A DNA stretch of 5,202 bases from Aquificota bacterium (GTDB taxonomy: Bacteria > Aquificota > Aquificia > Aquificales > Hydrogenothermaceae), in NCBI GenBank assembly GCA_013153765.1, contig JAADDT010000060.1:1-5202 (forward strand). The letters run 5' to 3'. Shown here piece by piece: positions 1 through 5,193 of this stretch. Below the pieces are notes generated by a model. That model saw only the letters and a list, made by a program, of their open reading frames with translations, was not told the origin of the DNA and did no database searches. Numbering within the stretch: the first letter of the stretch is position 1; the number at the start of each line of letters is the position of its first letter. Position numbers and translations under genes: made by a program.

Positions 1-804
1 TCCATAATAAAACAGATGCCGGCAGGTAGGAAGCCCGTAAAAACAGTCCTTTACTACGAGGACGAAAGGGAGATTATGATAGGCAGGATAAGGCTGGAGC
101 TTGATAAGGGAAGGCAGGCTTTCGTCGTTTATCCCTTAATAGAAGAAAGCGAGAAGATGGAGCTAAAGTCCGCACAGGAAGGCTTTAAGCAGTGGTCTGA
201 ATACTTTCCGGACAAAAAGATACTCCTCCTCCACGGCAGAATGTCCCAAGAGGAAAAGGACAAAATAATGGAGCAGTTCAGGAAAGGTGAAGGGGACCTG
301 CTCGTCTCAACTACCGTTATAGAGGTTGGCGTTGACATACCTAACGCCACCGTTATGGTTATAGAGGATGCTCACCGCTTCGGTCTATCCCAGATACACC
401 AGTTAAGGGGAAGGATAGGCAGGGGTGAGCACGGCGGATACTGTTTTTTGGTCGTACCTTCCCGCTTCAAGAAGAAGGCTGAAAATCCGGAGGAAGAAAA
501 AAGGAGGCTTAAAACGCTGGAAAGGCTGAAAATTCTGGTGAAAACCAGCGACGGCTTTAAGATAGCCGAAGCGGACTTACGGCTCAGGGGAGGCGGGGAC
601 ATTATAGGCACCGCCCAGTCCGGCAGGTTTAACTTCAGCATTGCTGACTTTTCACGACCTAAAGACAGGATAATACTTGAATACGCAAAAAAAGAGGCTG
701 AAAAGCTGATAGGGGAAGACCCGGAGCTGGAAAAACATCAGGATTTGAAGGAGCTTGTTTTCAGGAAGTACGGGGACAGGTTTAACCTGGTTAACGTTGC
801 CTAA
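1..804 (+). CDS. recG: ATP-dependent DNA helicase RecG, C-terminal part (5' end outside the window)
   Basis: RecG is a cytoplasmic superfamily 2 helicase that remodels stalled replication forks and branch-migrates Holliday junctions, driven by ATP hydrolysis. The window holds the last 267 residues, with the frame open from base 1, so the ATG at 16 is internal and not the start. Visible parts, numbered from base 1, are the PAGRKPVKT linker into the second RecA-like lobe (7-15), the segment FVVYPLIEESE (41-51), motif V with STTVIEVGVDIPNA (103-116), motif VI with QLRGRIGRG (134-142), and the RecG/Mfd-type translocation region with DGFKIAEADLRLRGGGD (184-200) then GTAQSG. RecG proteins usually have LRGPGE and GTRQSG there, so P-to-G and R-to-A changes are seen; Mfd also varies in this loop, and nothing suggests inactivity. 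The N-terminal wedge domain and first helicase lobe are not visible. The stop overlaps the convergent downstream gene by 4 bp. The family assignment is firm. Confidence 0.96.
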   Translation, partial: SIIKQMPAGRKPVKTVLYYEDEREIMIGRIRLELDKGRQAFVVYPLIEESEKMELKSAQEGFKQWSEYFPDKKILLLHGRMSQEEKDKIMEQFRKGEGDLLVSTTVIEVGVDIPNATVMVIEDAHRFGLSQIHQLRGRIGRGEHGGYCFLVVPSRFKKKAENPEEEKRRLKTLERLKILVKTSDGFKIAEADLRLRGGGDIIGTAQSGRFNFSIADFSRPKDRIILEYAKKEAEKLIGEDPELEKHQDLKELVFRKYGDRFNLVNVA

Positions 805-2678
805 TCCTTAAGCTGGTCTATCTCTATTATCTTCCCTAAAAAATCACCTTCAGCAAAGTCAAATCCCAGTTCCTTAGCAAAGTTATAAAGGTCTTCGTTG
901 TCAATGCCGGTGGCTATCGTTTTTATGCCGAACTCTGAGCTTATGTTTAAAACGCCTCTCAAAATCCTTTTCCTTTTAGGTGAGTAAACGGAGGTTTTTA
1001 TGAAAGTCCTGTTTATCCTCAAGTACTGGAATAGGTTGTGCTCAACCATTCTGGTAAGCATCTTTATTGAGGTTGTTCCTGCTCCGAAGTTGTCAAGGCA
1101 GAGCTTCAGGTTGTAAGCCTCCTTAACCTCCTGTATGGTTGAGTAGCTGTTTACGAAGGTGTTTTCTGACAGCATAAAAACAGTCCTGTCTTTTATGTAC
1201 AGAATGTCCTTCGTAATCCTGTCGTCAGGCAGGTTGTAAATCCTGTCAATGGTGGTCTGCCTCAGTCTGGTAAAAAGGAGCTTGTCCGTCTTCGGATAAA
1301 CCTTTTTCTTTATTATCTCAAAAAGCTTCTGATCTACCGTCCTGAAGGTGTTTTCAAGGTATATGTTTTCAAGCAGGTTGCAAACGTCCTTTTCTGACAG
1401 GCTTTCAAAACCGCACACAACCTCGTAGCCTGCCGTCTGAAGGTCTTCCGTCTTCTTTATAGGTCTCAGGTAAGGGTGGAACCTGCCCTCCTCAATGTCC
1501 TTCCTTATCCGCTTTTCAAACTCTATAGCCCTCCTGTATATGGTAGGCTGGTTTTTCATTATGATAAAGCTTCTTCTACCGCTTTCCCTCAGGTGTGAAA
1601 TAATGTCCTCCATCTGCAGGAGTATCTTTTCAAGGTCAGGAATGTCCTTTTTACTGACCTTCCTTACGACGAAAGTGATTTTAGGGACGAAAAAGCTCTC
1701 CTCGTCCGGGGTCGTTATCCTGATTGATTTTATAAAGTTTAAAAATTTCTTCAGAACGTTCCTGTTTACCACGTCGCCCTTTATCAGCAGTCCGAACTTG
1801 TTCCCTCCGATTTTACCGAAGACGAAATCAAATCCCGCTTCCTCAAGCTTCTCCTTCAGCAGTTTTGAAAACTTTTTCAGCAGTGTACTTCCGAACTCGT
1901 ATCCGTACATCTCGTTGGCGTGGGTAAGGTTTGAGACCTCCATCAGTATGAGTGTGTGGTTTTTGTCCTCCTCCAGCTGGCTTAAAGCTTCCTTTATCAG
2001 CTCAAGGAGTTTTCCTTTCTTGTAAAGACCTGTAACCACGTCGTACTCGTAAAACTCCCTCAGCTTCTTGTAAGCCTCCTCAAGCTCCTTGTTTTTCTTC
2101 TCAAGCTCTTCCTGTATCTTTATAAACTCTGTAATGTCCCTTGATATGCCCAGTATTGCTATTATTTTTCCTGTCCTGTTGTAGATTGGCGTCTTAATAA
2201 CGTCCAGTATTACCTCCTTCCCGTCAGGGGTTTTTACCTTCTCTATAGAGTGGGAGGAGGACTTACTTTCAAGTGCCTTCATGTCGCTGTATATACACTC
2301 TTTAGCCACTTCAGGGGGGAGGAACTCTATGTCGCTTTTTCCTATTATCTCCTCCTTGTTTATGCCGAATATGTCCGCAAACGCTTGGTTTACATAGATT
2401 ATCCTCAGGTTAAGGTCTTTTATCCATATAGGGTCAGGTGTGGTGTCAAGAACCTTGGTGAACAATACCTGAAGCTTGTCCTTCCACTCTTCACTGAGCC
2501 AGTCTATATTCTTGTATATCTCGTCCTTAAAGACGTTTTCCTCAAGGTAAAGTGCCTCTTCCAAAAGCTTGCTTATTAATTTTGAGACCGAGTATCCCTT
2601 TTCTGTGGACAGCTGTTTCAGTTTTGCAAGCAGGTCTTTATCAATAGCAATACTTAATACGGTTTTTTTCGCCGCCAT
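801..2678 (-). CDS. RHH DNA-binding protein fused to PAS, degenerate GGDEF and degenerate EAL domains
   Basis: This 625-residue protein probably acts in the cytoplasm; no membrane segment is visible. Residues 5-43 fit a ribbon-helix-helix fold: strand KTVLSIAID, helix DLLAKLKQLSTEKG, then SVSKLISKLLEEAL. Such domains dimerise and insert the strand pair into the DNA major groove. A PAS domain follows (about 71-185, ending GISRDITE), then a coiled-coil-like linker (186-209). The GGDEF domain (about 211-374) reads GGNKF at 291-295, has Glu247 and Ser249 where the two Asp of the metal loop normally lie, Ser264 for the guanine-binding Asp, and no RxxD inhibitory site. The EAL domain (about 386-622) reads EVV for EAL (419-421), DNFG for DDFG (529-532), RIN for KID (554-556) and ATGID for AEGVE (589-593). 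Cyclase and phosphodiesterase activity are therefore unlikely. I infer a ligand-responsive transcription factor, possibly binding c-di-GMP. The start is the only usable one: GGAG lies 7 nt upstream and in-frame stops lie further upstream. Confidence 0.93.
   Translation of the reverse strand: MAAKKTVLSIAIDKDLLAKLKQLSTEKGYSVSKLISKLLEEALYLEENVFKDEIYKNIDWLSEEWKDKLQVLFTKVLDTTPDPIWIKDLNLRIIYVNQAFADIFGINKEEIIGKSDIEFLPPEVAKECIYSDMKALESKSSSHSIEKVKTPDGKEVILDVIKTPIYNRTGKIIAILGISRDITEFIKIQEELEKKNKELEEAYKKLREFYEYDVVTGLYKKGKLLELIKEALSQLEEDKNHTLILMEVSNLTHANEMYGYEFGSTLLKKFSKLLKEKLEEAGFDFVFGKIGGNKFGLLIKGDVVNRNVLKKFLNFIKSIRITTPDEESFFVPKITFVVRKVSKKDIPDLEKILLQMEDIISHLRESGRRSFIIMKNQPTIYRRAIEFEKRIRKDIEEGRFHPYLRPIKKTEDLQTAGYEVVCGFESLSEKDVCNLLENIYLENTFRTVDQKLFEIIKKKVYPKTDKLLFTRLRQTTIDRIYNLPDDRITKDILYIKDRTVFMLSENTFVNSYSTIQEVKEAYNLKLCLDNFGAGTTSIKMLTRMVEHNLFQYLRINRTFIKTSVYSPKRKRILRGVLNISSEFGIKTIATGIDNEDLYNFAKELGFDFAEGDFLGKIIEIDQLKD
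2547..2678 (-). other. Region encoding the N-terminal ribbon-helix-helix DNA-binding domain
   Basis: These bases encode residues 1-44 of the minus-strand regulator. The pattern is a short basic lead (AAKK), an alternating polar/hydrophobic strand (TVLSIAID), an amphipathic helix, a glycine turn (KGYS) and a second helix with the typical S-x-S-x-L-I-x-x-L-L arrangement of CopG/Arc-type proteins. In that family the strand residues facing the groove read the DNA bases; here Thr6, Leu8, Ile10 or their alternate-facing neighbours would be candidates. The domain is separated from the PAS domain by roughly 27 residues rich in charged and aromatic residues, probably helical. The call rests on pattern recognition only; a profile search against RHH_1 or the MetJ/Arc superfamily would settle it. 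Confidence 0.78.
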
Positions 2679-2691: not shown

Positions 2692-2709
2692 TTAATAAAT
2701 TTTTATTAA
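2692..2709. promoter_or_regulatory. 18-bp palindrome, candidate operator upstream of the RHH regulator
   Basis: The site reads TTAATAAA-TT-TTTATTAA, a perfect inverted repeat with 8-bp arms and a 2-bp centre. It ends 13 bp before the regulator's ATG, and with the promoter proposed here it would cover the transcription start and early leader. RHH proteins typically bind short two-fold symmetric or tandem sites, often in their own promoter, so self-repression is a reasonable inference. The caution is composition: the arms are entirely A/T and lie in a tract that is almost all A/T, where inverted repeats of this length are not very improbable by chance. It could also be a weak hairpin in the leader RNA. 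Confidence 0.4.
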
Positions 2710-2714
2710 AAATC

Positions 2715-2742
2715 AATATAATTAATAAGAATTATATAACAA
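2715..2742 (-). promoter_or_regulatory. Putative sigma-70-type promoter for the RHH regulator gene
   Basis: On the minus strand a -35-like TTGTTA (2742-2737) is separated by 16 bp from a -10-like TATATT (2720-2715). Transcription would start near 2708, giving a leader of about 30 bases that contains the ribosome binding site. The surrounding AT-richness makes other -10 boxes possible, for example TATAAT at 2736-2731, so the exact promoter is uncertain. Confidence 0.35.
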
Positions 2743-2776
2743 TTATTTTAAACAGGAAACGGTCAGGGGTAAAGTG

Positions 2777-2838: not shown

Positions 2839-5193
2839 ATGTTAAGACTTGCTGTAGGGACAGGGTTAATAATAGCCGTCCTGCTTATAAACGTTTACTA
2901 CAACGGAATAAGGGAAGAGATAAACTATTCCCTTCTTATCCCGAACGTGGTAGCCCTTATTTTCATACTGATAGGCTACCAGATAAGCCACAGGCTCAAG
3001 AACATAAAGTCCGTCTATCTGCCTATGAACGCAGGTTTTATTTTTTTAATAATATCCCAGTCTTTCCTCGTTGCACACTTCCTTACGAACCAGTCCATAC
3101 TGACCTTGAGCATTTCCGAAATATTCGTAAAGCTTCCGGGGATAATACTGACGCTTACAGGTTTTGCCCAGTGGATAAGGGTTAAGGAGGAAAGGGAAAG
3201 GATACTGAAGGAGCAGGAGGAAAAGTGGAAGTCCATAATAGAGGGGGTTAACGAGATAATCGTAATCATACAGAACGACAGGATAAGGTACGTTAACTCA
3301 AAGATAAAAAGGCTTTTGGGATACGAGCCTGAAGACATAAGGGGAAAGCCCGTTTACCTGTTCCTGCCTGAGGAGGAGTTCAGCAGGCTTAAAAAGGACG
3401 GCTCAAAAAAGGTAGTAAAGCTGAAAACAGCCGAAGGCAGTGAGAAGGTGTTTGAGGTAAATCCTTCCATAATACCTTTTGAGGGAAAACCTGCCTTTCT
3501 GGGGATTTTGAGGGACATTACGGACAAGGTAAAAAGGGAGCAGGAGCTTTTGCAGGCAAAAAAGCGGATAGAGGAGATAAAGGAGAAGCTCCACGAAGCC
3601 CAAAAGCTTGCCAAAGTAGGCTACTGGGAGGTACACCTGCCGGACATGGAGTTTTACCTTTCACAGGAAGCTGTGGAGGTGTTTAACTGTCCTGCAGATA
3701 AGTGCAGTTATGATTTTGAGGCTTTCCTTCAGGTAATCCTGCCACAGTACAGGGACGAGATAAGGAGGAAGAGGTTTAACGCCATAAAAAACGGCGTGCC
3801 TTACGAGGCTGAATACAAGGTTGAGACGCCTGCCGGCGTGAAGATAATCAGGGAAAAGGTAAAGATACTGAACAACCACAGGACGGTGCTTGGTATAGTG
3901 CAGGACATTACGGAGATACACCAGATTTACCAGAAGGTTGCTGAAAGTGAGGAAAGGTACAGGAACCTTTTTGAGTACTCAAACGACGCCATCATAATAG
4001 CCGGAATGAAAGGGAGCATACTTGACGCTAACAGGAAAGCCCTTTACCAGATAGGCTACTCAAAGTTTGATATGAAACTGCTGAACATAAAGGACATTTT
4101 CGGTGAAGGCTTCAGGAGGGTTTACGACCGCTGGCTGAAAAAACTGCAGGAAAAGGGACACATCAGGTTTGAGGCTGTGGTGAAAACGAGGGACAGGTCA
4201 GGTTATCCTGCGGAGGTTTCAGCCAGCGTGTTTGAAATAAGGGGTAGGAAGTACATACAGCTCATAATAAGGGACATTTCGGAAAGGAAGAACGCAGAAA
4301 GGGAGCTGAAGCTTGCCTCAATGGTGTTTGAAAACGCCCTTGAAGGCATTATGATAACCGATAGGAACGGTCAGATACTCAGGGTTAACGAGGCTTTCTC
4401 CCAGATTACCGGTTACGGCAGGGAAGACCTTGTAGGCTGGAACGTGAAAGAGCTTTCGCTGTTTTACGCAGGTGAAAGGGGTTTTGACGGTCTGTGGGGT
4501 AAGGCTGAAAGGGAAGGTAAGTGGCAGGGTGAACTTACCGCCGTAAGGAAGGGAGGTGGAATGTTTCCGGTCTGGCTTTCAATCGTGCAGGTTAAGGGTC
4601 GGGACGGGGTGTCAAACTACATACTGATGGTGTCTGACATAACCACCAGAAAACACAAGGAGAAAAAGCTTAAAGACCTTGCTTACTACGACAACCTTAC
4701 CAAACTGCCGAACAGGGTTTACCTGATGTCAAAAATAAGGTCAGCCGTTGAAAAGGCTAAGCTGGACGGCACAAAGTCCGCCCTGTTTTTCCTTGACCTT
4801 GACGGCTTCAAGCAGGTTAACGACACTTACGGACACGAGGTTGGGGATAAACTGCTCCAAGAGGTGGCAAAAAGGCTGAGGGGTTCTGTAAGGAAGGACG
4901 ACTTTGTGGCAAGGCTCGGGGGGGACGAGTTTGTAATACTGATTGAAGGGGTTAGCGACAGGGAGGTACTTGAAAAGATAGCTAAAAAAATAATAAATAG
5001 CATGGGAGAGCCGTTCTTTATAGACGGTAAGGAGATAAGGATAGGCACGAGCATAGGCATATCCATAATGCCTGACGACGCAAAGGACGGGGAGACCTTC
5101 CTGAAACACGCCGATTTTGCAATGTACCGTTCAAAACAGAGGGGTAAAAACAGGTACACCTTTTATTTAGATATCGTTAACAATTCCCAGTAA
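2839..5193 (+). CDS. Membrane-anchored diguanylate cyclase: 4 TM segments, four PAS domains, GGDEF
   Basis: This 784-residue protein should condense two GTP into cyclic-di-GMP at the inner membrane. Four hydrophobic stretches (about 3-21, 31-49, 61-82, 94-112) have short loops, so no large periplasmic sensor domain is present; the charged linker after residue 114 points into the cytoplasm. Four PAS units follow: about 127-232 (ending LGILRDITDK), 257-362 (GIVQDITE), 367-487 (IIRDISERK) and 491-606 (MVSDITTRK), joined by helical linkers. The fourth has the familiar FENALEGIMITDRNG start. The GGDEF domain spans about 612-776: FLDLDGFKQVND (651-662) with metal ligand Asp653, Asn661 and Asp670 in the guanine-binding positions, GGDEF at 694-698, and the product-inhibition motif RKDD at 685-688, spaced correctly from GGDEF. 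All motifs for activity and feedback inhibition are present. No EAL domain follows. It is divergent from the RHH-PAS-GGDEF-EAL gene across 160 bp. The PAS ligands cannot be named. Confidence 0.95.
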   Translation: MLRLAVGTGLIIAVLLINVYYNGIREEINYSLLIPNVVALIFILIGYQISHRLKNIKSVYLPMNAGFIFLIISQSFLVAHFLTNQSILTLSISEIFVKLPGIILTLTGFAQWIRVKEERERILKEQEEKWKSIIEGVNEIIVIIQNDRIRYVNSKIKRLLGYEPEDIRGKPVYLFLPEEEFSRLKKDGSKKVVKLKTAEGSEKVFEVNPSIIPFEGKPAFLGILRDITDKVKREQELLQAKKRIEEIKEKLHEAQKLAKVGYWEVHLPDMEFYLSQEAVEVFNCPADKCSYDFEAFLQVILPQYRDEIRRKRFNAIKNGVPYEAEYKVETPAGVKIIREKVKILNNHRTVLGIVQDITEIHQIYQKVAESEERYRNLFEYSNDAIIIAGMKGSILDANRKALYQIGYSKFDMKLLNIKDIFGEGFRRVYDRWLKKLQEKGHIRFEAVVKTRDRSGYPAEVSASVFEIRGRKYIQLIIRDISERKNAERELKLASMVFENALEGIMITDRNGQILRVNEAFSQITGYGREDLVGWNVKELSLFYAGERGFDGLWGKAEREGKWQGELTAVRKGGGMFPVWLSIVQVKGRDGVSNYILMVSDITTRKHKEKKLKDLAYYDNLTKLPNRVYLMSKIRSAVEKAKLDGTKSALFFLDLDGFKQVNDTYGHEVGDKLLQEVAKRLRGSVRKDDFVARLGGDEFVILIEGVSDREVLEKIAKKIINSMGEPFFIDGKEIRIGTSIGISIMPDDAKDGETFLKHADFAMYRSKQRGKNRYTFYLDIVNNSQ

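Follow-up and report, generated by a model that had tools for sequence, protein, structure and literature searches.

The stretch analysed here (hereafter the window), 5,202 nucleotides from an Aquificota bacterium that lie in contig C46 of its genome, carries on the minus strand (801..2678) a gene for a 625-residue protein in which a predicted N-terminal ribbon-helix-helix (RHH) DNA-binding domain is followed by a PAS domain, a degenerate GGDEF domain and a degenerate EAL domain. The RHH-PAS-GGDEF-EAL fusion is real, family-specific and unusual. A transcription factor contained in one protein is plausible; we infer DNA binding, its targets and the direction of control, and lean towards the view that the protein regulates, under PAS control, its own promoter and, likely, the divergently transcribed gene for a diguanylate cyclase. 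Pairing of two chains would involve the strand of the RHH domain, PAS and the long helix that follows PAS; a signal sensed at PAS would alter the hold on the two RHH halves, and with it grip or release of the A+T-rich intergenic region. In the genus of the window (g1), GGDEF and EAL, having decayed, would then no longer be enzymes but would offer a scaffold for the dimer or a surface for a partner.

Since sequence, predicted fold and a conserved SxS turn agree, we take the RHH domain predicted at residues 1-45 (2544..2678, minus strand, as for all parts of this gene) to be real, with its paired ribbon a prediction. When residues 1-72 were scanned alone, RHH_3 (23.5 versus 21.6 bits) and DUF6364 (27.9 versus 27.3 bits) scored above their Pfam cut-offs, and RHH_5 (21.4) and RHH_1 (18.6) remained under theirs. 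Among 17 orthologous segments, Pfam matches at E ≤ 1 numbered 14 for RHH_3, 15 for RHH_5, 11 for RHH_1 and 16 for DUF6364, and among 38 whole proteins the corresponding numbers at E ≤ 0.1 were 21, 19, 8 and 35. A profile built from the 17 segments found AvtR as its best match among PDB sequences (E 0.0045), followed from E 0.05 upward by CopG-family proteins, ORF56, CopG, TraM, Arc and others; by our reading 11 of the 20 listed matches are RHH proteins, several of them presumably so. The AlphaFold2 model of the segment has a helix at 14-27, a turn and a helix at 31-48 (predicted local distance difference test score, pLDDT, 79-93 over the block), and that of the full protein has helices at 14-27 and 31-50 (block pLDDT 62-78, predicted template modelling score 0.50). 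Foldseek places the segment on eight listed CopG chains, six of them at 1.0-1.1 Å over 38-40 columns and two at 2.0 Å, with probabilities of 0.97-0.99, yet the best E value is 0.13 and none reaches 0.001; CopG heads the best 13 rows, which also hold MatP, Arc and NikR (the last at 0.9 Å over 42 columns). The ribbon strand is absent from both monomer models, full protein and segment, and was placed by analogy at about residues 6-12; S9 in this strand, and S30 and S32 in the turn ahead of helix 2, do not vary among the 17 segments. The strand-helix-helix unit of about 45 residues with a profile match that characterizes the RHH superfamily is thus found, on the segment. The possibility, raised in the initial annotation, that residues 1-44 are only a coiled-coil lead is not borne out, because the segment matches RHH profiles and its predicted helices superpose on CopG.

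The rest of the domain order, as first read from the sequence, also stands. A linker (residues 46-74, 2457..2543), shorter in genus g6 and in the protein of genome G024, leads to the PAS domain, supported by Pfam and the structure model (residues 75-185, 2124..2456; PAS_4 at 77-185 in the whole protein, E 1.7e-21). A long helix, seen in the AlphaFold2 secondary structure (residues 183-211, 2046..2132), connects PAS to the GGDEF domain (residues 212-368, 1575..2045; E 1.3e-10), and the EAL domain follows (residues 389-616, 831..1514; E 9.6e-22). A LOV-type (light-oxygen-voltage) photosensor was considered for the PAS domain and dropped, as what we take to be the LOV cysteine motif is absent from the sequence.

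Conservation falls off along the chain. Mean pairwise identity among 38 aligned members, which include many close relatives, is 63% for the RHH domain, 77% for the linker (the highest of all parts), 71% for PAS, 55% for the coil and 40% each for GGDEF and EAL; invariant columns, gaps ignored, number 5 of 45, 5 of 29 and 14 of 111 for the RHH domain, linker and PAS, and 7 of 157 and 5 of 228 for GGDEF and EAL. Positions in the latter two domains were assigned by alignment to two canonical GGDEF-EAL proteins from the genome of the window, with the roles of the GGDEF metal positions, and the eight EAL catalytic positions (E, N, E, D, D, K, E and Q), being those that we assume. The resulting residue table bears out the degeneracy that the initial annotation had reported for both domains. 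The GGDEF domain reads GGNKF, with the first metal-position Asp kept and Ser at the second, and gives the lowest score of the seven GGDEF matches in the genome. The EAL domain (EVV) keeps two of the eight catalytic positions, the E of ExL and the first D of DD; it is also without the Q of QPI (which reads RPI), the R of ExLxR and the final P, with E-V-V-x-G in place of ExLxR so that both L and R are gone. The protein therefore lacks the GG(D/E)EF motif with metal Asp of an active diguanylate cyclase, the eight catalytic positions of an active EAL phosphodiesterase, and the ExLxR and QPI ligand contacts of a LapD/FimX-type receptor. Enzyme activity or ordinary binding of cyclic di-GMP (c-di-GMP) by the window protein is unlikely, because these catalytic and motif residues are lost. 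That the protein is simply a PAS-GGDEF-EAL turnover enzyme, its N-terminal extension being incidental, would fit the solved folds closest to the whole model, which Foldseek gives as the PAS-GGDEF-EAL enzymes DosP and PA0861, with LapD and FimX-EAL among the matches; the loss of key catalytic residues from both domains and the conservation of the N terminus above that of the enzyme part make this very improbable.

Elsewhere in the family the EAL domain has decayed to different degrees. The catalytic positions kept number eight of eight in P0019, seven in L046 and P0020-P0023, six in L047, P0024 and L053, five in P0016, four in L041 and P0029, three in P0014, two in P0004, L050 and L051, and one in P0007; P0019-P0023 are close relatives of L046, the locus of genus g3. 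As most members have incomplete active sites, a signalling enzyme likely became a gene regulator, and the protein of genus g3 may, from its residues, still bind or cleave c-di-GMP. The proposal that the GGDEF and EAL domains read c-di-GMP consequently divides: it is doubtful for the window protein, the G024 protein has neither domain, and it holds as a possibility for L046 and P0019-P0023. That every member is a c-di-GMP-responsive factor like PdeL, with the degenerate EAL domain binding c-di-GMP and signalling to the RHH domain, is to our mind rather unlikely. What speaks for it, and to that extent against the regulator that we favour, is that the GGDEF and EAL profiles match 37 of the 38 aligned members, so that these domains may retain some specific role; further, catalytic positions are nearly or fully kept in L046 and P0019, the degenerate c-di-GMP receptor LapD is among the Foldseek matches of the whole model, and PdeL is a working precedent, with a helix-turn-helix (HTH) domain. 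The lost window residues stand against it, as do L050 and L051 with equally few catalytic positions and the absence of any EAL domain from the G024 protein.

Comparison with known systems reveals partial likenesses. PdeL (YahA) of Escherichia coli, described as a 'trigger phosphodiesterase', combines an N-terminal DNA-binding domain with EAL and binds its own promoter region (PMC5052742). Like the window protein, it has a DNA-binding domain and an EAL domain in one chain; it differs in that the HTH is of the LuxR type, the EAL is active and no PAS or GGDEF domain is named in the account cited, whereas the window protein has an RHH domain, PAS, and GGDEF and EAL domains without key residues. 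The fusion of DNA-binding and EAL domains that defines the PdeL type is thus present (with the RHH domain as predicted), the EAL activity residues are not, and by analogy the window protein would work most like PdeL with RHH in the place of HTH. Trifunctional PutA, an autogenous repressor, likewise bears an RHH domain at the N terminus of a large multidomain protein (PMC5293562), but its enzymes (proline dehydrogenase and pyrroline-5-carboxylate dehydrogenase) are active and, as far as that source describes it, it is without c-di-GMP domains, unlike the window protein. CdbA of Myxococcus xanthus is a small tetrameric RHH protein in which the RHH itself binds c-di-GMP (PMC7156744); compared by description, it ties RHH to c-di-GMP, but no fused GGDEF or EAL is described there. 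LapD, which binds c-di-GMP through an ExLxR motif (PMC12564702), and FimX resemble the window protein in having a degenerate EAL with the fold kept; unlike LapD, the window protein no longer has the L and R of ExLxR or most other positions, and it carries an RHH domain. The nearest published fusions that we found are PutA and an Arc-type RHH-HisKA-REC fusion in Lokiarchaeum (PMC5847659), as each is described in these sources. Among the papers listed by full-text searches of open-licence literature, none was seen to describe a bacterial RHH-PAS, RHH-GGDEF or RHH-EAL fusion, which is weak as evidence of absence. Were the regulator reading true, RHH would be a second type of DNA-binding domain among the few GGDEF/EAL-family proteins that act directly at promoters, and the family would offer a natural series (EAL nearly intact, dead and none) for the role of a decayed GGDEF-EAL part in a transcription factor.

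The initial annotation had called the architecture unusual, and its distribution agrees. A search of 5.8 billion proteins with residues 1-72, which reaches only relatives with shared exact words, found 29 proteins, the window's own among them, all at least 69% identical over the segment and all of one family. Pfam labels give GGDEF and EAL in 28 of these and GGDEF only in P0018 (411 residues); organism names accompany 11 of the 29, ten being Persephonella (one cut at 'Pers') and one Aquificae. An alignment search of the protein database gave three matches, including one of 58 residues and one of 110 residues with PAS labels (76% identical), the latter likely a piece of the RHH-PAS family. The window's genome holds seven matches to the query protein, one of them full-length, and among the matches listed for this genome and 60 relatives all that start at residue 1 belong to one family, f1. 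With the G024 RHH-PAS protein as query (E ≤ 1e-12), exactly one match to the RHH-PAS part was found in 23 of 41 f1 genomes: 12 of 14 in g1, one of one in each of g2 and g3, three of three in each of g4 and g6, three of six in g5 and none of 13 in g7 to g10. Nine of these last 13 genomes are >95% complete; the two g1 genomes without a match, G009 and G011, are 55% and 78% complete. Complete RHH-PAS-GGDEF-EAL frames are present at 20 of the 23 loci, two others (L045 and L052) are cut by contig ends, and L056, in G024, ends after PAS. Eight related loci lie in metagenome-assembled genomes named Persephonella (five) or Aquificota (three). The RHH profile matches 49 of 136 genomes of the phylum, and outside f1 the RHH-matching frames among the matches listed are no longer than 145 residues, with no long protein in other families; the taxonomic spread of the long form is thus confined to f1 within this set. 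Beyond the phylum, coverage is that of the protein-database, related-locus and plasmid searches. In plasmids, 208 of 72,556 records matched, and the best 10 of the 208 are PAS-GGDEF-EAL proteins without RHH, because their matches start at query residue 75 or 76.

The candidate target is the divergent gene (2839..5193, plus strand) for a 784-residue diguanylate cyclase with PAS domains and then a canonical GGDEF with RxxD, identified by Pfam, motifs and neighbourhood comparison. This PAS-GGDEF neighbour or its orthologue is divergent from the RHH gene at 12 of the 23 loci, eleven in g1 and one in g3, and [GA]GDEF and RxxD are kept in all 11 full-length copies, the twelfth (L039) being cut. The pairing would put the regulator upstream, not downstream, of c-di-GMP synthesis. 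The other neighbour, recG, of which the window holds the 3' end (1..804, plus strand; Pfam RecG_dom3_C), converges on the RHH gene, and a recG gene cluster lies beside the RHH gene at 13 of the 23 loci. At other loci the near neighbours, judged by eye, include ribD-like, cytochrome bc1-like, threonine-synthase-like and bioF-like genes; because they differ among loci, the RHH gene is not bound to one neighbour.

G024 (L056) departs from the common layout. Its RHH-PAS protein stands alone with 186 residues, and the gene ends after PAS, directly into recG; in L050 and L051, the other two g5 loci compared, recG convergently abuts the full-length gene. Divergent from the G024 gene, at a distance of 100 bp, lies a gene for a 611-residue HAMP-GGDEF protein (G024:C50, 3770-5605) with GGEEF, RxxD and one CxxCH motif, which resembles the window cyclase only from residue 416 on, that is, in its GGDEF part. 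The cyclase opposite the RHH gene thus exists in two unrelated forms. From its CxxCH motif, the HAMP-GGDEF protein is possibly a heme-bearing sensor.

The region upstream of the RHH gene is conserved among close relatives. At five close g1 loci (L035-L039, the window not among them), the 85 nucleotides before the start codon are on average 90% identical, compared with 63% for the next 59. In the window, a conserved block, TTTAAAATAATTGTTATATAATT (2730..2752, minus strand), includes TATAAT at 2731-2736 and is a candidate promoter or operator. Allowing ≤3 mismatches it occurs at 14 places in 14 genus genomes (reversed control, six); the seven places at 0-1 mismatch, the window included, are all at the RHH gene, and the seven at three mismatches are elsewhere. 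A second block, GTTAATAATTATCATTTTTAATAA, has five places at ≤3 mismatches in the same genomes, all at this promoter (reversed control, one). Shorter words also recur: the heptad TTAATAA is in 12 of 18 upstream regions from the 23 loci versus 21% of 82 A+T-rich background regions (eight of 10 clades; 7.0 versus 3.2 expected with one member per clade), and GTTAATAAT is in the upstream regions of four of 10 clades, the window's not included, versus 0.16 expected from shuffles; the words were picked post hoc among related sequences, and we treat the enrichment of these two as a lead only. Such conservation could be that of a self-acting local regulator and, equally, plain promoter conservation. 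A promoter scan of 2600-2900 returned three sites (0.9 expected), none of which uses the conserved TATAAT, and an Rfam scan of the window at gathering thresholds gave no match.

An 18-bp inverted repeat, TTAATAAA-TT-TTTATTAA (2692..2709, strand-neutral), is a candidate operator. Its general form, TTAATAA-N4-TTATTAA, occurs at 10 places in the 14 genus genomes (reversed control, zero) and was dropped as a regulon operator, as only the window's place adjoins an RHH-gene promoter. In three genus genomes (L072, L075 and L076) the palindrome lies between a small divergent open reading frame (ORF) and a hemL-like gene. The A+T-rich spacer between the RHH and cyclase genes (2679-2838) contains 11 inverted-repeat pairs of at least 8 nucleotides, several overlapping, and any single operator guess is weak for that reason.

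Several further observations weigh against the PAS-controlled regulator. In scans of the whole protein the RHH families remain under their Pfam cut-offs (DUF6364 22.0 versus 27.3 bits, RHH_3 17.3 versus 21.6, RHH_5 17.1 versus 26, RHH_1 14.9 versus 20.5), so that the RHH profile hit sought in the initial annotation comes from RHH_3 and DUF6364 on residues 1-72, with RHH_1 falling short both ways; the G024 protein matches no RHH family in Pfam at E ≤ 0.01. The divergent cyclase is not seen at 10 of the 23 loci (L040 and L047-L055), of which L049 is at a contig edge. The truncation in G024 is in one genome, on one contig, and could for that reason be an assembly fault. The window has no match to GTTAATAATTATCATTTTTAATAA and lacks GTTAATAAT, its palindrome at 2692..2709 is not preserved at orthologous promoters, and the other places of the palindrome, judged by eye, are near hemL-like, rnhA-like, transketolase-like and other genes that form no coherent set. 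By analogy, V7, S9 and A11 are the exposed residues of the strand; all three have small or hydrophobic side chains, where many RHH repressors have more polar ones. This last point, together with the operator searches, which established none, would suit an RHH domain that merely dimerises the protein, making it a signalling scaffold without specific DNA binding. We regard that as improbable given the invariance of the strand serine and SxS turn in all 17 segments and the position of the best-matching small RHH proteins, which adjoin ParE toxin genes as antitoxins do. Antitoxins as a class usually bind their own operator.

These small proteins bear on the origin of the fused domain. Among frames of <100 residues, the RHH profile best matches L058, L059 and L060 (76-82 residues), from other Aquificota families; the ORF after each starts 17-23 nucleotides before the RHH stop codon and scores above the Pfam cut-off for ParE_toxin. 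They are small frames with a C-terminal tail and without sensor, GGDEF or EAL domains, unlike the window protein. Residues 1-51 of the fused RHH align ungapped with L058 and are 37% identical to it (hhalign probability 97.6), and we infer from the sequences that the fused RHH shares descent with an antitoxin. That it still serves as an antitoxin against a ParE-type toxin, under sensor control, is scarcely credible, despite the ParE-type genes 3' of all three small proteins and the colinearity of L058. The neighbours of the window gene are recG and the cyclase, and the adjacent toxin gene and toxin-binding tail of a type II antitoxin are not found there; the 23 loci have no common cluster of small ORFs beside the gene (ORFs of at least 70 residues; toxin profiles not run), and the L058 match stops at residue 51, ahead of the C-terminal tail of L058. 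A stepwise history, which we put forward tentatively and hold to be possible as a whole, is that in one Aquificota family an antitoxin RHH was captured by a PAS-GGDEF-EAL enzyme, giving a sensor and repressor in one protein, whose c-di-GMP part was then dismantled in stages still visible among living relatives. That part would be nearly intact in g3, where the protein would be a trigger phosphodiesterase of an RHH type, without catalysis in the genus of the window and deleted in G024, with the RHH-PAS core still controlling the divergent cyclase gene, itself exchanged for another along the way.

Outside the fusion family, a 73-residue hypothetical protein of Verrucomicrobia (P0032), from the 5.8-billion-protein search, matches the RHH profile (E 7.1e-4, 35% identity). 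Nine other RHH-profile matches were read by eye: four are small RHH proteins, four are HNH-like proteins whose C terminus is an RHH-like segment, and one lies inside an EAL domain; a weak match in a 656-residue ORF (G025:C9) was discarded, as it sits in an apparently ordinary EAL domain. The HNH-like ORFs, whose terminal RHH-like segment resembles the fused RHH domain, are of ~165-216 residues (L061, L062, L063 and L065, in G006, G007, G000:C56 and G010), and the window's own genome carries one of them, on C56.

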